From positions 1 through 58,196 of the IMG/VR virus record IMGVR_UViG_3300032087_000460: DNA of 58,196 nt; one strand, 5' to 3'. Shown here piece after piece: positions 11,638 to 34,000 of the stretch (positions are counted from its first letter, which is position 1; every line of letters starts with the position of its first letter). Below the pieces are notes generated by a model. The model was not told the DNA's origin. It did no database searches and was given only the letters and a program-made list of their open reading frames with translations. The position numbers were made by a program, and so were the translations under genes. This stretch comes from a virus.

Positions 11638-11760
11638 GTTATAACACTAAGGTTATAACCCTATTACTATAATATTTTTATTAAGTATTATTATTATATA
11701 TAATATTATTATTATAATTTATATATTTTAACTTTAAGGTTATAACATTAGGGTTTAAAC
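11638..11760. repeat. AT-rich block flanked by GTTATAAC palindromes
   Basis: GTTATAAC occurs at 11638-11645, 11652-11659 and 11739-11746, and GTTTAAAC at 11753-11760; each is a perfect 8-bp palindrome. AAGGTTATAAC is repeated around the second and third copies. Between them lies a run of almost pure A and T (ATTATTATTATA-like). An easily melted segment bordered by protein-binding-size palindromes suits a DNA-unwinding element. Confidence 0.6.
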
Positions 11761-11779: not shown

Positions 11780-11807
11780 ATTATACTGATTTTAGAGGCC
11801 GTGTCAA
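11780..11807 (-). promoter_or_regulatory. Consensus sigma70 promoter for the leftward (late) arm
   Basis: On the minus strand TTGACA (11807-11802) and TATAAT (11785-11780) are both perfect and separated by 16 bases. It points at the first leftward gene (ATG 11589), and the transcript would cross the AT-rich block as a leader of about 185 bases. It has the same hexamers and spacing as the promoter at 7792-7819. Confidence 0.78.
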
Positions 11808-11875: not shown

Positions 11876-12010
11876 TCTAAACCGTATTTCACCACACCAT
11901 TACCAGAAGATTTTACGTTTTACCCTTACTATTACCAGAACTTTTTTGAAACCCTGTATGTACATATATTAGGCACAGAATATCAGTGGTTAACAGATTT
12001 AAAAACCTGA

Positions 12011-12067
12011 TCTGTGTATTTCTGTGTATACGTATACGGTGGACCGGGGGGTGGCCCTTGCCCCCCG
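12011..12067. repeat. Tandem repeat, 12-bp palindrome and GC hairpin
   Basis: TCTGTGTAT occurs at 12011-12019 and 12021-12029. It runs into the perfect 12-bp palindrome GTATACGTATAC (12026-12037). A GC hairpin follows: CGGGGGG (12045-12051) can pair with CCCCCCG (12061-12067) around a 9-base loop. The hairpin is not followed by a T run on either strand, so it is not an ordinary terminator. Its last base is the first base of the leftmost 15-bp dyad. Confidence 0.6.
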
Positions 12068-12096
12068 CGTCAATATGTCGCGCCAAAGTAAAAAGC

Positions 12097-12222
12097 AAGT
12101 AATACTTTAAGTAAAAAATAAATAATTACTTCATTATTACTTAGCCATTACTTAAAAACCTATAGTATTCAAGCCTTTATTACTTAATGCTCAAAGCATT
12201 CCCTATGCTCTTGACAAGTAAT
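12097..12222. repeat. AAGTAAT/ATTACTT short repeats, partly phased at 11 bp
   Basis: ATTACTT occurs at 12125-12131, 12136-12142, 12147-12153 and 12179-12185, and its complement AAGTAAT at 12097-12103 and 12216-12222. The three central copies are spaced exactly 11 bp, about one helical turn, so bound proteins would sit on one face of the DNA. They lie between the first dyad and the main dyad cluster. Confidence 0.6.
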
Positions 12223-12443
12223 GATCGAAGCATTTCCAGATTTGCCTAAAAAATAGGCACCCACCTCTTTCGGAGCACATTTAACCCTACCCCTGCGTCA
12301 GTGTGTCACACCCTATGCGTCAACGTATCACATGCGACACTATGACGCGCGGCATATCGTCACAACATGCTACGTATTGACACATGCGTCAACCTGACAC
12401 ACCCACCATTTTAAGTTATCCACAATGCGTCAACCTGTCGCAG

Positions 12444-12470
12444 TTTACACTCTATTGCTTTTCGTATAGT
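12444..12470 (+). promoter_or_regulatory. Candidate early promoter, rightward
   Basis: TTTACA (12444-12449) and TATAGT (12465-12470) are separated by 15 bases, shorter than ideal. A 15-bp dyad ends three bases before the -35 hexamer and another lies about 65 bases downstream of the -10, which would suit an operator-controlled early promoter. It lies 166 bases before the first rightward gene. Hexamer match and spacing are only moderate. Confidence 0.35.
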
Positions 12471-12635
12471 CGCGCGCGCGGGTACTATTTAATTACACAA
12501 AATATCGTTCCTATCACAAAATAATTTTAGTATGCGTCAGCTTGTCGCGATAAATTGAAATAAAATTACTCGACTTTCAAAACGCCGCGAATTACTGTTC
12601 TTAGTATCAAAACAACGAATTGAGGAATTAAGAAA

Positions 12636-12812
12636 ATGCTTATCGAAACTACTTTGGGCGAATTGCTAGAAATACATGAGGCCAATTATGACGATAACGG
12701 AAAGGCTAATTCTATTTTGGTGGAGATTATCACAAAACTAAATGGTGATCGCCTCGCGGTTATCCCGCCAACAATGCCAGAATTCCAAGATTATTGTGAC
12801 GCAATCGATTAA
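12636..12812 (+). CDS. First gene of the rightward arm, small acidic protein
   Basis: A 58-residue acidic protein starting MLIETTLGELLEIHEANYDD, after a GAGGA ribosome site 10-14 bases upstream. It is the first gene transcribed rightward from the control region, where phages often place host-takeover or regulatory proteins. No family recognised and no DNA-binding motif is obvious. Confidence 0.6.
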   Translation: MLIETTLGELLEIHEANYDDNGKANSILVEIITKLNGDRLAVIPPTMPEFQDYCDAID

Positions 12813-12951: not shown

Positions 12952-13251
12952 ATGGATAGCCAAGACATGAAAGCAATCTGCATCGAGGCAATTAATGGGG
13001 CGCTAGTTTCACGCGGTAAAAATAAAGGCTCATTGAAAGCTTCACGGCCTAATAGCACTAGCGACGCTGCTGCAGCATGGGAAGCGCTTATAATGGAAGC
13101 AAACCCCTATAAGGCGGGAATATGGTTTCAATTAATGATGAATGAACGGCAACAAGCTATTTTTCGGGAAGTATCAAAAGCAATCGAGGGCTTAGATTTA
13201 CGTTCCATTGATCGAGACCGAAGCATCCTCGAGCAATTAGGCGCTTGGTAA
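12952..13251 (+). CDS. Early protein of unknown function
   Basis: A 99-residue helical protein starting MDSQDMKAICIEAINGAL, after an AAAGGAT ribosome site. It contains SDAAAAWEALIMEANPYKAG and a C-terminal charged stretch with several Asp and Arg. It is encoded with two tiny genes just before the DUF7227-like gene, and all four look like an early host-interaction group. Function not recognised. Confidence 0.6.
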   Translation: MDSQDMKAICIEAINGALVSRGKNKGSLKASRPNSTSDAAAAWEALIMEANPYKAGIWFQLMMNERQQAIFREVSKAIEGLDLRSIDRDRSILEQLGAW

Positions 13252-13323: not shown

Positions 13324-14124
13324 ATGCTTAATACTTTAGACACTAGCAAACTAGCAGATGGTATACGCCAACAGATGGATAGCTATCTAGGCAAAACCAA
13401 AAGCTTCAGCGCTATCACCATCGGGTTAGACGCCAAGACTAGCAAGGGTGAGAAGCTTGGAGTTAGAACGGCAGTCACATACTTTGCGCCGCATACTTTA
13501 TCGGGCCGCAATGTTTGCGCGATGGCCGAAATAGCGGATTGCGTTGGACCGTGCCTATTCACTGCGGGACGTGGGGCAATGTCCTCTGTTATGTTATCAC
13601 GAACGGCACGAACGCTAGTCTGTCAGCAATTACCAGAAGTATTTTTGGCGCAACTAAAGCGCGAATTGATCAACCATTGCAAAGCTTGCGTACGCGATGG
13701 GGTTATTCCCGCCTATCGTCCTAATGGGACTAGCGATATTCGTTGGGAATTATGGGATGAATGGCGCGAGCTTATGGAATATCTAGTTGAGACATATGGC
13801 TTGCGGGTTTATGACTACACCAAGCTTGCTAATCGCAATGTTCCTGATTGGTATGACTTAACCTTTAGCTATTCGGGTTCCATTGGATACAAGCCATTCG
13901 TCAAACGTGCCATTGCTAACGGCGAGCGCTTGGCTGTTGTCTTTAGAACGCGCGACATGGTGCAAAAATTACTTGATAGCGATGGTACATTTATGGGGCT
14001 TCCCGTTGTTGATGGTGACGATACAGACGTTAGGTTTTTTGATCCTAAAGGGGCTATCGTTGCGCTGTATGCTAAGGGCAAGGCTAAGAACGATAAAACC
14101 GGATTTGTAGTTGACGTTAACTAA
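13324..14124 (+). CDS. DUF7227-like (gp88-type) phage protein
   Basis: A 266-residue protein with NVCAMAEIADCVGPCLFTAG, then NGTSDIRWEL, YDYTKLANRN, LTFSYSGS and VVDGDDTDVRFFDPKG, ending with GLYAKGKAK-like LYAKGKAKNDKTG. I recognise this as the widespread phage family now called DUF7227 and related to mycobacteriophage gp88. Cysteines at the C.......C...C cluster may bind metal. No biochemical role is established that I know of. It is preceded by GGGAGAAAACGTCA and a strong RNA hairpin. Confidence 0.8.
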   Translation: MLNTLDTSKLADGIRQQMDSYLGKTKSFSAITIGLDAKTSKGEKLGVRTAVTYFAPHTLSGRNVCAMAEIADCVGPCLFTAGRGAMSSVMLSRTARTLVCQQLPEVFLAQLKRELINHCKACVRDGVIPAYRPNGTSDIRWELWDEWRELMEYLVETYGLRVYDYTKLANRNVPDWYDLTFSYSGSIGYKPFVKRAIANGERLAVVFRTRDMVQKLLDSDGTFMGLPVVDGDDTDVRFFDPKGAIVALYAKGKAKNDKTGFVVDVN

Positions 14125-16218: not shown

Positions 16219-16411
16219 CGTAGATACATTAGCTAAACGTGTACGGGAAAAGAATGGAAACCTTAAAATAAAATATGTAGACAGGTACTGGATCATAAAC
16301 ATGAGCTTTATGAGACCCCTACAAAATGGTCTGCATGAAGAGATAGTAATGGGTGGGCAGGGTATGCCACTATCTAAAGTAGCCAACATGGCTAATGGAG
16401 TATTGAAATGA
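16211..16411 (+). CDS. Small early protein
   Basis: A 66-residue protein starting MSSVDTLAKRVREKNGN, preceded by AGGGGAGTAG. It overlaps both neighbours by a few bases (ATGA at its end). Mixed alpha and beta content. No family recognised. Confidence 0.5.
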   Translation: MSSVDTLAKRVREKNGNLKIKYVDRYWIINMSFMRPLQNGLHEEIVMGGQGMPLSKVANMANGVLK

Positions 16412-16653
16412 AAGCCGTAACAGTTGATTACAATAATCTATGCCACACCACAACTTTGGGGCATGTGCTTGCTATTCATAGGGCAAACTACGATCACGAT
16501 GATAAAGCAAACCAGATAATTAAACGTCTAGAAAGCTTTTTTGGGCATGACGAAAACGCAAGCATAACACTACCTAATAAAATAGTAGAGGAGTATACAG
16601 ATCACATCATATATAACTTGCAATCAATACTAACTAGCAGGGGATTAACATGA
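16408..16653 (+). CDS. Small early protein
   Basis: An 81-residue protein (MKAVTVDYNNLCHTTTLGHV) with several His and Asp residues in the middle (HRANYDHDD). It starts inside the previous stop codon and ends in the next start codon, so it belongs to a coupled run of four genes. Function unknown. Confidence 0.5.
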   Translation: MKAVTVDYNNLCHTTTLGHVLAIHRANYDHDDKANQIIKRLESFFGHDENASITLPNKIVEEYTDHIIYNLQSILTSRGLT

Positions 16654-17142: not shown

Positions 17143-17400
17143 ATGGCAGGTGTACGCAAACTACCATATTTCAATAGAAAAAAAGCATGGGTTACAAACC
17201 CTCAAAAACGCAAGTCTAAAGATAAATGGTCATCTTACCGTGTAAGCATATACACTAATTGGTATTCACATTATAAACTGGTGGCACATGCATGGTTTAA
17301 TAGTAAAGAAAAAGCACATGCGTGGATTGATGCGTTTGAAAATGGTGAGGACTTACCCAACACAACGATAGCAAAAAAGGAGAAGAAGCCAGATGTCTGA
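17143..17400 (+). CDS. Small basic protein upstream of the integrase
   Basis: An 85-residue basic protein (MAGVRKLPYFNRKKAWVTNP) after AAGGAGACAC. It shows a beta-beta-helix order (YRVSIYTNWYSHYKLVAHAW, then KAHAWIDAFEN) similar to the protein at 14586. It overlaps the integrase start by eight bases, so the two are probably co-translated. A DNA-binding helper of recombination is conceivable, but there is no direct evidence. Confidence 0.55.
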   Translation: MAGVRKLPYFNRKKAWVTNPQKRKSKDKWSSYRVSIYTNWYSHYKLVAHAWFNSKEKAHAWIDAFENGEDLPNTTIAKKEKKPDV

Positions 17401-18478
17401 TCTACCTCGTTACGTTCATCGTGTTACCTACAAGAACAGGAGGATTGGATACAGATTTGTACCACCTCAGAAATACATCGATGCAGGCATCGCTGAACGT
17501 AAGACATTTGGGGCGCAGATACATCGCATTCGTGAGTGGCTTGAGCCTGTGTATAAGTCTATGGATAAGTTCGATGAGGACAACAGGGTATCCAGTCTTC
17601 GATCTAATAGTCGTGTGTCTCACTTGATTGAACACTATAAATTCTATAGCAATTTCAAGGACTTAGCAGACACTACTGTACGGGACTATGAGTATATGTT
17701 TGGGTTTATGATCAAGCATTCGAAGGATTGTCCTGTGGATAAAATTGATGTGTCGAAGGCCCGTATGATGTACGAGGAAGTACGAGATTTGCATGGTTTG
17801 CATGTTAGCTCCAAGTTAGTTCGGGTGTCACGAATAGTATTCAATCATGCTTTGGATTTAGATTTGATACCAAACAATCCTTTCAGTCGGGTGAAGGCTA
17901 AGACGCCTAGACCACGACGAGTACTATGGACGGACGAGCAAGTCAACTTGTTCTTGACTGTTGCGTACAATAATTGGGAATGGAGAAGTATTGGTTTGAT
18001 ATGTCAGATGGCGTATGCATGGGTGCAACGTGTAAATGACATACGATTGCTTACGTGGGACAGTCTTGATCTTAGTAGTAAAAGAACAGCTACGATCAAT
18101 CAAACTAAACGGGGTGCAACGGTATACCTTCCGATTGCTGATGACCTACACAAAATGTTATTGGAACAAGAGCAGGACTTTGGCTTTCAGAAGTACGTAG
18201 CACCGCGAGTTCACCCTCAAGGTGGGGAGTTCTACCCTTACTCAAGAGAAGAGGTCTCACGCCTCGCTAAAGACGTTTTAAAGGCTGCAGGACTACCAAC
18301 TAATCTATGGCTAAGTGACCTGCGACGAACTGGTACTACACAGATGGTGGAGAATGGTGTACCTGTTACTTCGATCATGCAGGTTACAGGACATTCGGAC
18401 CCTTCGGCGTTAAGCCCTTACATAAAAAATACGCTAAAAGGTGCAACAGAAGCATTAAATTCTAGAAGGGGGTGTTGA
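17393..18478 (+). CDS. int: Tyrosine recombinase (phage integrase)
   Basis: A 361-residue site-specific recombinase that would join phage and host DNA at att sites. The N-terminal half has an arm-type and core-binding region (TTVRDYEYMFGFMIKH). The catalytic domain shows box I QRVNDIRLLTW, box II SDLRRTGTT, then GHSDPSALSPY with the nucleophilic Tyr nine residues after the His, the normal spacing. In box II the usual His is replaced by Ser (S-D-L-R-R), a variation I recall in other phage integrases. It lies among replication genes, and no repressor gene is apparent, so lysogeny is possible but not shown. Confidence 0.9.
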   Translation: MSDLPRYVHRVTYKNRRIGYRFVPPQKYIDAGIAERKTFGAQIHRIREWLEPVYKSMDKFDEDNRVSSLRSNSRVSHLIEHYKFYSNFKDLADTTVRDYEYMFGFMIKHSKDCPVDKIDVSKARMMYEEVRDLHGLHVSSKLVRVSRIVFNHALDLDLIPNNPFSRVKAKTPRPRRVLWTDEQVNLFLTVAYNNWEWRSIGLICQMAYAWVQRVNDIRLLTWDSLDLSSKRTATINQTKRGATVYLPIADDLHKMLLEQEQDFGFQKYVAPRVHPQGGEFYPYSREEVSRLAKDVLKAAGLPTNLWLSDLRRTGTTQMVENGVPVTSIMQVTGHSDPSALSPYIKNTLKGATEALNSRRGC

Positions 18479-18495
18479 CGGTTCTGCGAATCCGT
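18478..18495. other. Imperfect inverted repeat just after int; possible attP or hairpin
   Basis: ACGG and CCGT flank TTCTGCGAAT directly after the integrase stop codon, in a 60-base gap before the primase. attP sites often lie beside int, and GGTTC...GAATCC faintly resembles a tRNA T arm, but the loop is too long for one. Weak evidence only. Confidence 0.25.
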
Positions 18496-18540
18496 GATAA
18501 AAGCTTAACCAGAAGCCGAGTAAAAAGGAGAGTATATAAT

Positions 18541-19320
18541 ATGAATATATTAAACATAGTTAAAGACTTAGAGTTAAGTGTAGGTAGAACTATTAGAATG
18601 GATTGTCCTAACTGTAAGGGTTCTAATACTTTTACTGCTACAAATATGGCGGGTGAGCTTCTGTGGAATTGTTACAAGGCAGGTTGTAACATCAAAGGTA
18701 GAACCAAGGTTAATATGTCAGCTAAGGACATTAAAGCTAAGATGGTATCTACAAGATGGGATGAGTTACCTTCCTATTCTGTAAAGTCTACTGAATTTGT
18801 AAGGCCTAATTACATTGTAAACGATAAGCCGCCTAAATTATTTCAGTGGTGTGAGATGTGGGGCGTTGACACAAATGATGTTCTGTACGATATTCGTGAT
18901 GATCGTGTTGTGTTTCCGATTCATCACGATGGTAAGCTAGTGGATGCAGCAGGACGCGCGATGGGCCACAGATTACCAAAGTGGAAACGGTACAATGATT
19001 CGGGCTTGCCTTACCACAAAGGTGGTGGTACGGTGGGAGTGCTGGTGGAGGACTGCATCAGCGCGTATGTGATCGGGAGCGATGAACGAGTAGGGGTAGC
19101 ATTACTCGGTACATCTTTATCGGAGTTGCACAAAGTGTATCTCTCCCGCTTCGATAAAGTTATCGTCGCTCTCGATCCTGACGCATTACCGAAGACACTT
19201 CAAATAGCGGGGAAGTTACGATCTGTCATACCAGATGTGCGTGTTTTGCGTTTGTCTGATGACTTGAAATATGGTAGAACTGTGGACTTAGAAGAGTTGG
19301 AGAGACTCATATGGAATTAG
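18541..19320 (+). CDS. DNA primase (zinc-ribbon and TOPRIM)
   Basis: A 259-residue primase that would make RNA primers at the fork. I use the ATG after AAAAAGGAGAG rather than a start 23 residues earlier that overlaps int. Cysteines 22 and 25 (DCPNCKG) with 44 and 49 form the zinc ribbon that reads the template. E170 in VLVEDCISAYVIG and the D212/D214 pair in VIVALDPDA are the TOPRIM metal residues. Its stop overlaps the helicase start by ten bases. T7 has both domains in one protein; here they are separate genes. Confidence 0.88.
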   Translation: MNILNIVKDLELSVGRTIRMDCPNCKGSNTFTATNMAGELLWNCYKAGCNIKGRTKVNMSAKDIKAKMVSTRWDELPSYSVKSTEFVRPNYIVNDKPPKLFQWCEMWGVDTNDVLYDIRDDRVVFPIHHDGKLVDAAGRAMGHRLPKWKRYNDSGLPYHKGGGTVGVLVEDCISAYVIGSDERVGVALLGTSLSELHKVYLSRFDKVIVALDPDALPKTLQIAGKLRSVIPDVRVLRLSDDLKYGRTVDLEELERLIWN

Positions 19321-20534
19321 CAATATTAAGATCCTTAATGGATAAAGAGTTTTACGATGACCATCGTGGAGCTAAATGTCCTGACCGTATCTTTTCTTCT
19401 GACGGAAAGAAGATTAAACAAACCATAGATGCAGCAATGGAAAGCTATGGTAGGACTGTACAGACTGATGAGATTGAAGCTATCTTTATGGCTAACAATC
19501 CTTCGATGACTACAGCACAGAAGGCTGCATACTCATCCTTGTTTGATAACATACGTAGGCAAGAACCTATGGGTTCTGACGTAGCTGAAGATGTTTTCAT
19601 CAAGATGTTTCAACAAGTAGTAGGTGAGGACATAGCCAACTTAGGTTTTGATTACGTAAATGGAACTGAGACAAGCCTCGAACCTTTACGTGAATTGTTG
19701 GAGAACCATCAGGATAACTTCCTGCCACAATTACGTGTAGAGTGGGAAGACATATCGCTAGAAACTTTATTAGCTAAGAATGCTCTAGAGACTAGATGGT
19801 CTTTTAACATATCCTCATTGGCACGTAAGGTTCCGGGTATCAATGGAGGACATCTTGTTGAGATTGGAGCAAGGCCAAACACAGGTAAGACTTCTTTTCA
19901 TGCCAGTCTTGTGTGTGGACCCGGTGGCTTTGCTGAACAAGGTGCTAAGTGTGTAGTACTCTGTAATGAGGAGGCAGCACATCGCGTTGGTGCTAGATAC
20001 CTTACAGCGGCATTGGGTGCTGACGTACACAACATTAGTCAGAATAAAGAAGCTGCTTTACGTAAGTGGCAAATGATGAAAGAGAGTGTCTTCATCAAGG
20101 ACTCAACAGGCAAAGACATGGCATGGGTTGAGTCACTCTGTAAGACATTCAAGCCTGACGTTATGGTGTTAGACATGGGCGATAAGTTTGCTAAGACTGG
20201 TGGCTTTGCACGTATGGACGAAGCGCTAAAGGCTAACGCAATCTATGCAAGACAGATCGCTAAGACGTATGACTGTGCTGTACTGTATATGTCACAGCTA
20301 TCTGCCGACGCTGAAAACAAGGTAGTACTCAATCAGGCAATGATGGAAGGCAGTCGTACAGGCAAAGCAGCGGAAGCTGACCTCATGGTTCTGATTGCTA
20401 AGAACCCTTTTGTTGAAGGACAAGAGGAAGAAGATAGACAGCGCCACTTAAACGTGGTAAAGAATAAATTAACAGGATGGCATGGTATAGTTCATTGTGA
20501 GCTAGACTATAAAGTCGGACGATATACATCATAG
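19311..20534 (+). CDS. DnaB/gp4-type replicative helicase
   Basis: A 407-residue hexameric helicase of the RecA-like fold that unwinds DNA at the phage replication fork. Walker A is GARPNTGKTS at residues 186-195, Walker B is PDVMVLDMGD with D288, and the C-terminal SQLSADAENK then GSRTGKAAEADLMVLI fits helicase motifs 3 and 4. The N-terminal third is helical and probably contacts the primase, which is encoded just upstream with an overlap. It is shorter than bacterial DnaB, as usual for podoviruses. Confidence 0.9.
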   Translation: MELAILRSLMDKEFYDDHRGAKCPDRIFSSDGKKIKQTIDAAMESYGRTVQTDEIEAIFMANNPSMTTAQKAAYSSLFDNIRRQEPMGSDVAEDVFIKMFQQVVGEDIANLGFDYVNGTETSLEPLRELLENHQDNFLPQLRVEWEDISLETLLAKNALETRWSFNISSLARKVPGINGGHLVEIGARPNTGKTSFHASLVCGPGGFAEQGAKCVVLCNEEAAHRVGARYLTAALGADVHNISQNKEAALRKWQMMKESVFIKDSTGKDMAWVESLCKTFKPDVMVLDMGDKFAKTGGFARMDEALKANAIYARQIAKTYDCAVLYMSQLSADAENKVVLNQAMMEGSRTGKAAEADLMVLIAKNPFVEGQEEEDRQRHLNVVKNKLTGWHGIVHCELDYKVGRYTS

Positions 20535-22698: not shown

Positions 22699-22707
22699 GA
22701 GGGATTG

Positions 22708-24744
22708 ATGAAGGTAGTTCTTGACGTAGAGAATACAGTTACAGAACGTGGAGGAAAATTACACCTAGACCCTTATGAACCCACTAATGCACTAGTCATG
22801 GTGGGTGTTTTATTCGATACAGGAGAACATCGTGTATTCACATTTAACCACTCTGAGAAACAAGCTGACAGCGTTGAGGATTTACACAGCATACTTTCTG
22901 AATGCACTGTGCTTATCGGGCATAATCTTGCACATGACCTCGCATGGTTGTGGGAAACAGGGTTCCAATACGACGGAGCAATCTGGGACACGATGGTGGC
23001 CGAGTACGTTTTACAAGAAGGTCAGAAGAACCCTCTCTCGTTAGACGCATGTTCGGAGCGATATGACCTAACAGTTAAAAAGCAAGACACATTACATAAC
23101 TATCTGAAAAAAGGTTATAGTGTTGCAGATGTGCCACACTCTGAACTTACTGAGTATTTGATTGCTGACTTGAAGGCAACACAAGAGCTTGCTGCACTGC
23201 AGCGTGTCAAACTATTATCTAGTAATTACAGTAACTTGATGCCAACTGTTGAACTAACTAATCAAGTTACTAAAACTCTAGCACGTATGAATCAGAAGGG
23301 CATCAAGGTTGATCGAGATGCTCTCAATGAGGTTCGTGAGGAGTTTGAACGTGAGCGTAATGACCTAGTCACAGAGTTAGACCACATTGCGCGTGACTTG
23401 ATGGGTGACTATCCCCTCAATCTAAACAGCCCAGAACAACTCTCTTGGCTAATCTATTCCCGCAAACCTAAAGACAAAAAGAACTGGGCAGATAACTTCA
23501 CTGATCGTATGGCAGACAGCGACTTTAGATCTACCGTGTCTTCACTGTCTCAAGTTATGTACAAACAAAAAGCCAAACAATGTAAGACTTGCTTCGGTAC
23601 AGGTAAGGTACGCAAGACTAAAAAGAATGGTGAGCCTTTTGCAAGACCTAGTAAATGTAGTATGTGCGAAGGCGAAGGCTGCTTGTATGAAGCTACAGAT
23701 CAGATAGCAGGTCTTAAATTTAATCCGCCTAATCCTAAATGGGTTAGCGCTAATGGCTTCAGCACTAACAAGAATGATCTGACACTGTTAGCTGCGGCTG
23801 CTACTAGAAGTAAGAATACAGTAGCACAAAACTTCCTAAGTAAAGTAACAAGACTGAGTGCAGTAGAAACTTATCTCTCTTCATTCGTAGACGGTATTGA
23901 TACCTTCACGAAAGCTGACGGTATGCTACACGTACAACTAACACAGACCGTTACATCTACTGGCAGGTTTTCAGGACGTAATCCTAACATGCAGAACATG
24001 CCGAGAGGCGGTACATTTCCAGTTAAGAAATGTTTCGTGTCTCGTTGGAAAGGCGGTAGCATACTTGAAGCTGACTTTGCACAGCTAGAGTTTCGTGTAG
24101 CTGCCTTCCTATCACAGGACAAACTAGCTATAGAAGAGGTGAGTAATGGGTTCGACGTACACTCCTATACTGCAAAGGTTATCAGTGATGCAGGCCAGCC
24201 TACGTCGCGCCAACAGGCGAAGGCACACACATTCGCCCCACTATATGGAGCCACAGGGTTCGGACGTTCTCCTTCAGAGGCAAGATATTATGAACACTTC
24301 GGCGAGAAGTACAGAGGAATATCCAGATGGCATACAGAACTTGCCAGAGAAGCCCTCAACGACGGAAGAATAACAACGCCGTCTGGTAGGTCATTTGCCT
24401 TTCCTGAAGTAGAAAGACGGGCTAACGGTACTCCTACGTACTTTACACAGATTAAGAACTATCCTGTACAGTCATTTGCTACTGCTGACATTGTGCCGCT
24501 TGCTCTTCTGTACATAGAGAAGCAGCTTGAGCGTAAGGACACATGCATTGTAAATACTGTACATGACTCAATCGTTTTAGATGTACATCCAACGGAGGTA
24601 AACTTTGCACTGAATGTAATACAAGACACAAATAAAAATCTTAAAAGCCTTATTGACATTCAATGGGGAATAGATTTTAATGTGCCATTGCTTTTAGAGG
24701 CTAAAATTGGCCCTAACTGGCTTGACACTAAAGACGTGAACTGA
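22708..24744 (+). CDS. Family A DNA polymerase with DnaJ-like zinc finger insertion
   Basis: A 678-residue replicative polymerase. The 3'-5' exonuclease has D6/E8 (LDVEN), HNLAHD near 72-77 and Y150/D154 (YLIADLK). Between exonuclease and polymerase lie two CxxCxGxG motifs, CKTCFGTG at 292-299 and CSMCEGEG at 317-324, as in the DnaJ cysteine-rich domain (half of its usual four). Polymerase motif A is LEADFAQLEFR with D456, motif B is RQQAKAHTFAPLYG, and motif C is VHDS with D620. I recall the same DnaJ insertion from SAR116 phage HMO-2011. ATG 22708 follows AGGAGGG. Confidence 0.95.
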   Translation: MKVVLDVENTVTERGGKLHLDPYEPTNALVMVGVLFDTGEHRVFTFNHSEKQADSVEDLHSILSECTVLIGHNLAHDLAWLWETGFQYDGAIWDTMVAEYVLQEGQKNPLSLDACSERYDLTVKKQDTLHNYLKKGYSVADVPHSELTEYLIADLKATQELAALQRVKLLSSNYSNLMPTVELTNQVTKTLARMNQKGIKVDRDALNEVREEFERERNDLVTELDHIARDLMGDYPLNLNSPEQLSWLIYSRKPKDKKNWADNFTDRMADSDFRSTVSSLSQVMYKQKAKQCKTCFGTGKVRKTKKNGEPFARPSKCSMCEGEGCLYEATDQIAGLKFNPPNPKWVSANGFSTNKNDLTLLAAAATRSKNTVAQNFLSKVTRLSAVETYLSSFVDGIDTFTKADGMLHVQLTQTVTSTGRFSGRNPNMQNMPRGGTFPVKKCFVSRWKGGSILEADFAQLEFRVAAFLSQDKLAIEEVSNGFDVHSYTAKVISDAGQPTSRQQAKAHTFAPLYGATGFGRSPSEARYYEHFGEKYRGISRWHTELAREALNDGRITTPSGRSFAFPEVERRANGTPTYFTQIKNYPVQSFATADIVPLALLYIEKQLERKDTCIVNTVHDSIVLDVHPTEVNFALNVIQDTNKNLKSLIDIQWGIDFNVPLLLEAKIGPNWLDTKDVN

Positions 24745-31007: not shown

Positions 31008-34000
31008 CGCGTACCGAAAGAGGCTTGCTTTCTCTTCTCAAGCATTGAATCTAATGCTGAAAGAGCTAGACCATAAGACCTCTGTTCTACTATACTATCG
31101 CCTCTAAGGAACAGATAGTCTATAGAAGAAAGTAACTCACCTCTATTAGCCTTGTCTATTGCTTCAAGATGTTTCTGTTGGAACAATCTCTCAATAGATG
31201 AGGCATCTGCTTCTGAACTCTTTTTGTCCCATCTAACTTTCATTTCGTCATTGGTTAGATGATACAGTTCAAACTCAGCTAGTTGAGAATATGCATCTGA
31301 CAATTCTTCTGTACTAGCATTTTCCCTCTTTAACTTTTCAATCACTACACGCATAGCGGATGCTTTTGCATCTGCCTCTTGTGCTGCCTCACTGTTAGCT
31401 GCATCTTTGGTGTAGCCTCTATACTGTTTAGTTCTTTGTTTTACGAGACTACGCTGTCTATTTAGTTTTTCTTGTTGGGTCATTTTAACACCCAACTCAT
31501 TAACGTCAGAGTTGTATTCTTCTGACCCAAACAGATCTTTAAAACCTTCTACAGCATAGTGACCAAAGTATTTAGCCTGTCTGTTGTCTAATCTAGAAGA
31601 CCCTGTGTACGGAAGCATATCGCCTCTCTTCACACCTATACGCTGCATTTCAAGCTCAAGCTCACTATTTTTTTGTGAATAGGTGATACCTACAAAACGT
31701 GCTATGGGTGACTTACGCATCTTCTCAGCATTGTCTAATAGATATTTTTTTGTAGGAAATGTTTGCTGAACGTCATAGCCAAATATGTTTTCTGGCAAGT
31801 AAGAATTAACGGCACGGGCAGTCAACTTAGTAGTGAAACTTTCGTCTTCAATACCAGCACGTATGTCCTTCTGTGTATTCTCTACAGCTATTTGATCGGC
31901 AACGTCCTTGAACATTTTAAGCGGCGTTAAGAAACCACCTAAGTACTCTGCCGAAAACTCAGACAGCCTATCGTTATTCTTTTGTGCTGCAGTAGAGTCC
32001 CACTCAAAGCCTGTTGCAAGAGTACTAAACCCTTCCAAAAGCCTATTTACATTTTCACCACTACGTACAGGGAAGCCTGACATAGTTTCAAGGTACATCT
32101 TACGATCTTGTGCGCTTCTATTTCTCGGAACCTTTTCTTGTATTAGATTGGTGCCTAAGAAATTATCTGCATCGATTAGAAACTCTGCTGCTGCTGCATA
32201 AGAACTCAAGGGCCACATAGCGCGTATGTCTACACCACCCATATCATACCACGGAGTATTATCCTCTTTGTTAGCTAAATGATTTACCATGAAAGCCATA
32301 GTCGATGTTCCAATGGCAGCTTTAGCATAAGCTTCCCTTTGTGCATCGCCAAACGCACCTTTAATAGGACCAGTTTCAGCCTTAGCTATACCATGAAACA
32401 TTTTAGCCGCAGCATTTGCAGGACTGTATTCATACATAGTTCTAAGTGAGTTAACGAAGAAGCGGGGAAACGGCATTACAACACTACTAACAGGCCGTGT
32501 TACTTCCATAAACGACAAGAAAACTTTAGCAGGTTTAAGTTCTGGGTTAGCTGCAAATGTCATTTTAAGTGCGTCTTCTGTAGCACCAGCTATAAGTTTC
32601 TTATCTAGTATACGACCAGACTCAACAAACTGCATTACATTTTTTATTTGACCACCCGCATAAGGGCTTCCGTGTTTAGCTTCATAATCCCTTAAAAACT
32701 TTTTAAACCTTTTGTCCAAAGAAGACATATAAAATGCCCTACGGAAAAATGAATCTGATGCCATGTTAAAATGATTAAGTGTTTCAATGTATCCGTTTGC
32801 TGCTCTAGCAAACTTATCTTTACCACTAGCAAACATATCAGGTTGATTACGTATCAACTGTCTATGTAAAGCAGGAGTATACTCCATAGTAGCATCAATC
32901 AATGTCTGACTTTTGGTAGTGTTCATAACACCATACAATACAGAAGCAGAGTCTGACAGTACGTCTTTAACGCCTTTTGCTACACCAGCACCAGCTTTAC
33001 TAAAGTTACCTTGTGCCGCGTTTTGTAGCCCACGTCCTATTTGATACATGGCACTATCTATAAAGTTTACACCTGTTTGACCAGCTACCATCATACCACC
33101 GGACATAATGTTTCGTGACGTAGTAACTAGCTGTGACGTTAAAGACGCAACTCTAACTCGATCTAAGGTTTTAATTGCACCACCAGCAGTAAACATTGCT
33201 TCCATAACTTTAGATCTTTTATTTTCTAAATAGTTGTCTAGTATCTTACGCATCTCTGCGTCTACATTTGGATATACGTCACCAAAGAACTCGCGTTTTA
33301 ACCTACTAGCACTATGCATTAACGTAGCACCAGTACTCATAGACTTTCTTGTTATGTCACCAGCAGATACTGCGCCGTTAGTGTAGTAGGACATAAATGT
33401 CATAAAGTCTTTTTTACTTATGCCGCTCTTAGCAATGCTTTCGTCAAGAACGGCAAGCACAGATTTCTCTTGCTCTTGTGTAAGCTCTCTAGCGAACTTA
33501 CCCCCAAACAAATTTTCTATGCCGTTTAAACCGTCAGAGATAGCCGCTGTTATGCGCGTAGGCCTTGTCTTATCCGAAGGTAGCAGACCTCTGTATGTAG
33601 CCGCTGCTGACTCACCTAATACATCCAGCATACCAATGCGGTCTAGATCTTTCTGTAGTTGAATTGATACGCGACCTATACTCTCAAATACATCAGCCCT
33701 TTGTAAGGCGTCTATAGCTTTCCTCTGATATTCTTCAGGTACATTGTCAATAAGTACAAAGTCCTTTACAACTTTGTCCATCAGAGGTTCTACTTTCGCT
33801 CTTTTTAAAGCTTTATCTGCAGCATCAGCAAGAGCTATTGTAGCTACGTCATATTCACCCGTTGATGGGCTTGACGTAACAGCGTCTACTGCATCAGTAG
33901 TTTTGTTAAAATCTTTTTGTGCCTGTTTAATATTATTAAAGTTAGTCTCACGGGCCTTATTAAACTTAGCAATCTTTCTAGAGGCTGCAATACCTTCTGG

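Follow-up and report, generated by a model that had tools for sequence, protein, structure and literature searches.

Seven 15-bp pseudo-dyads of the form GYGWCA-N3-TGWCRC, six on one strand and one inverted, are clustered at 12067-12548 of a 58,196-base virus contig (IMG/VR record IMGVR_UViG_3300032087_000460; the whole contig is called the window below). Judged from the sequence, this array is probably an iteron-type replication origin, the place where copying of the phage DNA would start. An earlier note on this DNA offered three readings of the sites, as origin iterons, as operators of an unrecognised regulator or as sites for a host protein. We favour the first, because sites of the same type lie inside genes for O-like initiators in five or more other phage lineages, whereas the control search with a scrambled half-site gave no cluster inside an initiator gene.

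We assign the record to the HMO-2011-type phages because of its DNA polymerase, which is 62-63% identical to those of Puniceispirillum phage HMO-2011 and Roseobacter phages CRP-345 and CRP-1, and because of its gene content, which includes a DnaB-like helicase, an integrase, a thymidylate synthase, a Cas4-type exonuclease and a ribonucleotide reductase. Up to about 11.6 kb the genes point left, those between 12.6 and 31 kb point right and the remaining ones left once more, and the array occupies the gap between the divergent gene arms, adjoining a conserved core element (Table 1). A search of bacterial genomes for relatives of the helicase or integrated relatives of the phage found none. The small early proteins encoded at 12636-12812 and 16408-16653 are paralogues that have the pattern TTLGxxLxIHxANYDxxxKANxI in common.

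Table 1 Features of the control region and of the neighbouring gene arms (window coordinates).
Feature	Position	Strand	Remarks
Very AT-rich stretch	11640..11758		10-11% GC; TATAAC...GTTATA repeats; downstream of the leftward promoter
Perfect sigma-70 promoter, TTGACA-16-TATAAT	11780..11807	-	reads left into the structural arm
Conserved core element	11986..12066		GTGGTTAACA ... CTGTGTA ... GTGTATAC ... CCCC ... GTGGCCC ... GCCC; common to the window and 19 other phage contigs
Iteron-like dyad 1	12067..12081	+	GCGTCAATATGTCGC; fits GCGTCANNNTGTCGC; abuts the conserved core element
AT-rich stretch	12082..12222		24-25% GC at 12080-12199; candidate unwinding element
Dyad 2	12295..12309	+	GCGTCAGTGTGTCAC; 1 mismatch to GCGTCANNNTGTCGC
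Dyad 3	12317..12331	+	GCGTCAACGTATCAC; 2 mismatches to GCGTCANNNTGTCGC; weakest copy
Dyad 4	12334..12348	-	inverted copy GCGTCATAGTGTCGC; exact to GCGTCANNNTGTCGC
Dyad 5	12386..12400	+	GCGTCAACCTGACAC; 2 mismatches to GCGTCANNNTGTCGC
Perfect DnaA-box consensus TTATCCACA	12416..12424	+	flanked by dyads 5 and 6; the record has two such boxes
Dyad 6	12427..12441	+	GCGTCAACCTGTCGC; fits GCGTCANNNTGTCGC; beside the DnaA box
Dyad 7	12534..12548	+	GCGTCAGCTTGTCGC; fits GCGTCANNNTGTCGC
First rightward early ORF, 58 aa	12636..12812	+	no family match; paralogue of 16408-16653
GP88 protein	13324-14124		
Tyrosine integrase	17393-18478		
Primase-like protein	18472-19320		
DnaB-like helicase	19311-20534		
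PolA polymerase	22705-24744		

The earlier note had counted at least seven copies of a 15-bp dyad within 482 bases, six direct and at least one inverted, and the coordinates bear this out. The symmetric form GCGWCANNNTGWCGC is exact in four copies, and a reversed-pattern control gave zero. When up to one mismatch to GCGWCANNNTGWCGC was allowed, six places were found in the 58,196 bases and all six were inside the array, and with up to two mismatches 7 of 12 places in the record were inside it. Recurrence of the motif elsewhere in the phage had been named beforehand as what would speak against the array, and the scan of the whole record left every site with at most one mismatch within it. At three mismatches, the whole window gave 49 matches vs 28.6 ± 6.2 in shuffled sequences, and none of 100 shuffles reached 49. 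Because AT-rich sequence dominated raw palindrome counts, these were replaced by a composition-corrected score for dyad clusters; in the resulting de novo dyad search the array had a log10 P of about -13, the strongest value among the HMO-type control regions tested.

The left half of the dyad, GCGTCA, hardly varies (12.6 bits), the right half being looser (10.1 bits), so that each copy is directional, six pointing one way and one reversed. The spacings between successive dyads (228, 22, 17, 52, 41 and 107 bp) are irregular and do not follow the regular helical spacing of lambda-type iterons. Since the dyads can be folded as RNA, they might also be read as hairpins in a long leader transcript, and in relatives hairpin-like dyads do occur a short way before the start codons of early genes. 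In most copies, however, the fourth position is T-T (A-A in the inverted copy), breaking the stem at the same place, the sites are found on both strands, and Rfam gave no match for them; given this recurrent mismatch in the stem, we consider RNA hairpins very unlikely.

The surroundings of the array contain several elements that are expected near an iteron-type origin. An A+T-rich region beside the iterons, a feature of the lambda-type O/ori module, is present between dyads 1 and 2, and within it the 7-mer ATTACTT/AAGTAAT occurs six times (starts at 12097, 12125, 12136, 12147, 12179 and 12216), vs a mean of 0.11 and a maximum of 2 in shuffles. The second, more extreme AT-rich stretch at 11640-11758 is a candidate for an alternative unwinding element or an operator. 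A DnaA box, a feature of iteron-type origins generally, is present as TTATCCACA at 12416. Perfect DnaA boxes were also found in the control regions of CRP-3 and L143, and such boxes are weakly enriched in HMO-type control regions (2 in 15.6 kb vs 4 in 248 kb, p = 0.045; p = 0.16 in a wider set of regions upstream of GP88 genes). In another GP88-carrying phage, three perfect DnaA boxes lie within 200 bp upstream of early genes (L173, 3762-3956), and this segment is likely an origin. No GANTC (CcrM) site was found in the control region of the window.

The blocks of the core element (GTGGTTAACA, CTGTGTA, GTATAC, CCCC, GTGGCCC and GCCC) keep a fixed order in 20 aligned contigs, which consist of HMO-2011-type phages and of others sharing the GP88 gene. 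As RNA, this 20-contig alignment revealed no conserved fold and no covarying pairs, and Rfam gave no match. The ~80-bp element, kept across very different phages, is possibly the core of the origin. Analysis of GC skew had been suggested in the earlier note as a way of recognising an origin, and the cumulative skew indeed has its minimum at 12616, in agreement with an origin, and its maximum at 31023; because both positions are also switches of transcription direction, the skew is confounded with divergent transcription and by itself is no proof of an origin.

The position between divergent transcription units would also suit an array of operators, at which an unrecognised phage regulator bound to the dyads would control divergent promoters, the leftward one at 11780-11807 and an undefined rightward early one. 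The perfect leftward promoter is 260 bp from dyad 1, and dyads are found at early-gene starts in HMO-2011, CRP-345, L027, L056, L085 and L087, a placement that would suit operators or RNA hairpins. However, no dyad overlaps the leftward promoter, a promoter scan gave no good rightward promoter among the dyads, the other early genes of the window lack such dyads, the sites with at most one mismatch are confined to one 482-bp cluster, and a repressor gene was not found among the genes scanned. We regard operators as improbable but as the main rival of the origin reading; the motif scan described below also speaks against them. Promoters of the same kind, with a 12/12 match to the sigma-70 consensus, are present in the control regions of HMO-2011, CRP-2 and L066. 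The first leftward gene (window 11589, minus strand) has its start codon directly after TTGACA in the context TTGACAATG, which is found at the start of the same gene in HMO-2011, CRP-1, CRP-207, CRP-345 and CRP-603.

The evidence that favours origin iterons came from scanning 2.9 million viral contigs of IMG/VR for pairs of TGCGTCANNNTG sites separated by 8-38 bases and, in a second scan, for exact GCGTCANNNTGTCGC pairs. Among the 120 contigs listed from both scans, at least 26 have three or more clustered GYGWCANNNTGWCRC sites, and in 19 of these 26, among the matches listed, the clustered sites are inside O-like (HTH_36) winged-helix replication initiator genes. In the control, a scrambled half-site with unchanged composition yielded one cluster among 120 contigs listed, and this was outside any initiator. 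The 19 initiator contigs, whose lineages were chosen by the motif, comprise the L238 family (n = 11) with the distant L251, then L262, the L289 family (n = 4, with L308 and L313 assigned by similarity score only), L267 and L325, which makes at least five lineages among the matches listed. We put weight on these lineages and not on the count, because a single family accounts for 11 of the 19 and the counts are those among the matches listed.

Representative initiators match PF13730 (HTH_36) and the PHROG family 'replication initiation O-like' or related initiator families, and the sites in their genes, in most cases spaced by 18-24 bp, directly follow the part that codes for the DNA-binding domain. 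Three of the four copies in L325 have the exact half-site pair of the window, and the P-loop protein neighbouring this initiator resembles, by its sequence, a DnaC-type loader. In lambda, the origin lies inside gene O, where near-perfect inverted repeats beside an A+T-rich stretch bind O dimers (PMC5043065). The clustered sites inside the IMG/VR initiator genes have this anatomy of the lambda ori and are lambda-type iterons. That the motif scan led to replication initiators, and among the matches listed to a regulator-like ORF only once (L247), argues against operators. L247 (373-930) is the other contig with an exact pair of the window's sites, which it has inside a small ORF resembling a DNA-binding regulator. 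The description of the array as an 'undescribed control system' was too strong for the type of site and is fair for the missing protein that reads it.

That protein was sought in the record itself. A profile search for HTH_36 gave no match in the record, none of its proteins is similar to O-like proteins (best phmmer E 1.9), no ORF of initiator size spans the array, and an O-like gene containing the iterons, as in lambda-type modules, was not encountered. Searches with Pfam and PHROGs found no known initiator family among the scanned small genes and no phage repressor among the genes scanned, many small ORFs having no family. The statement that no gene of a known initiator or repressor is visible thus holds within the limits of profile searches. 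The GP88 protein and the protein starting at 12952 are unlikely readers of the dyads, because close versions of them (77% and 82-87% identity, respectively) accompany entirely different repeats in L104/L105; the AlphaFold model of the 12952 protein is all-helical with low confidence (pLDDT 62), and a winged helix was not seen in it. The 24760 protein, conserved family-wide, was also considered as the initiator; judged from its sequence, it bears more resemblance to single-strand-binding or recombination proteins. An unclassified early protein may serve as the initiator, or the initiator may come from outside the record.

The control regions of relatives keep the position of the array and change its sites. 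The closest contigs (helicase identity 90-94%) stop before the control region or differ there, L022 differing at its own left end, and a DNA-level search with the control region among cultured phages gave no match. More distant relatives have the same position and core element with other repeats: TTGTGATCACAA in CRP-603 (four copies), CRP-345 and CRP-1, TTGCAAnnTTGCAA in CRP-2, GTTTAAnnTTAAAC in CRP-9, CGAATCA in CRP-207 and an 8-bp tandem repeat in MW202701. Outside the group, arrays of 15-bp 6-3-6 dyads, e.g., TGTTGC-N3-GCAACA, lie upstream of GP88 in many contigs that carry this gene, and three control regions (L143 3789-4273, L160 3800-4100 and L175 1468-1780) contain two interleaved dyad families, TGTTGC-N3-GCAACA and AGTGAGYRCTCACT.

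The exchange of repeats bears on the reading of the dyads as sites of a host DNA-binding protein, acting as a regulator or titrated by a decoy, to which the strong clustering of the sites and the failure to find a phage reader would be suited. CRP-1, CRP-2 and CRP-9, all recorded on host strain FZCC0023, carry different dyads in this region, and this speaks against a single host protein reading the dyads throughout the group; we give the host-protein reading little credence. The dyads might also be arm-type sites of the phage integrase in an attP region, as integrases bind short repeats and a tyrosine integrase is encoded in the rightward arm. Its gene is, however, 5 kb from the array, and in the relative CRP-3 the attachment region, placed with primers from PMC6918029, lies between 2829 and 3642, downstream of its integrase and outside its control region. 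Because of this location, arm-type sites are, by analogy, highly improbable in the window.

Several further repeats were seen in the early regions of relatives. Six HMO-2011-type relatives have their own dyad 4-8 times across the early region, usually a short way before early genes (L101 10876 and 11805; L111/L102; L027 1738-4479; L056 2660-5384; L085 577-4415; L087 345-3291). Examples are GTCCGACAGCGGAC, TGTCCAACGTTGGACA, GTGAC-N5-GTCAC and GTAACGNCGTTAC, all absent from the window, and these dyads could be operators or mRNA hairpins. A conserved stretch ending in AAACGGCAGGCGCAGAGGAT precedes the first early gene at L101 10930-11050, L111 6510-6600, L112 5830-5920, L027 1800-1905 and L056 2730-2830; both sides of its central hairpin seem to differ from phage to phage, Rfam gave no match, and the stretch is a candidate structured RNA. 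Several early genes of L158 (3940-4990) and L157 (4390-5000) are preceded by copies of one strong promoter together with a hairpin at the start codon (TTACCGAAGGTAA or TTCCTGAAAGGAA).

If the array is an origin, its action may be pictured as follows. An initiator, probably a winged-helix protein similar to lambda O in action, would bind the seven pseudo-dyads as dimers and wrap the DNA, and this binding would open an adjacent AT-rich stretch, for which 12082-12222 and 11640-11758 (10% GC) are the two candidates. Assistance may come from host DnaA bound to its box at 12416-12424. The DnaB-like helicase, the primase-like protein and the PolA polymerase of the phage would then be loaded, and in theta replication the forks would leave both ways along the two divergent gene arms. 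Points against the origin reading are the lack of an O-like gene in the record, the irregular spacing and intergenic position of the sites, the different repeats that relatives have at this position, the weak enrichment of DnaA boxes, the choice of the initiator lineages by motif and the confounded skew. Because an initiator gene and regular spacing were looked for and neither was found, we do not file the array as a lambda O/ori module.

For the HMO-2011-type phages as a group, we tentatively suggest, as a possibility we would not rate as high as the origin reading of the window, that a syntenic origin with a conserved core has dyads that switch by lineage and an initiator class without recognisable homology to O, Rep or DnaA. 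If the origin reading of the window is right, the array would also show a set of O-type iterons separated from any recognisable O gene, and an origin that keeps its position while its repeats are replaced between lineages. HMO-2011-type phages are among the most abundant marine phages (PMC6918029), and our literature search found no description of iterons or of an origin for them. With the array, a 0.5-kb segment whose sites are defined and a small set of unclassified early genes are available for testing.

Among known systems, the lambda ori and O-like initiators (PF13730; PHROG 391/270/678) are similar to the window in having repeated 15-19 bp dyads beside AT-rich DNA and, in the matches listed from IMG/VR contigs, GYGWCA-N3-TGWCRC inside the initiator genes. 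The inverted-repeat iterons within gene O bind O dimers and open the adjacent A+T-rich DNA (PMC5043065, PMC3985674). Lambda iterons are regular and lie within the initiator gene, whereas those of the window are intergenic, irregular and accompanied by a DnaA box in a record without an O-like gene. Iteron plasmid origins (RK2, P1, F and pSC101; PMC5043065) are similar in their mostly direct repeats, DnaA box and AT-rich region with short repeats; unlike them, the window lacks a gene for a Rep-type initiator beside the array, and its sites are pseudo-dyads and not plain direct repeats. The control regions of HMO-2011, CRP-1, CRP-2, CRP-207, CRP-345, CRP-603 and CRP-9 have the same position between the arms and the same core element, but each lineage has another repeat. 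In cluster A mycobacteriophages, many copies of the site of one regulator, the stoperators, are scattered over the genome, each of them short and asymmetric. These phages share with the window the GP88 gene family and many copies of one site; unlike stoperators, the sites of the window are dyads gathered in one 482-bp cluster.
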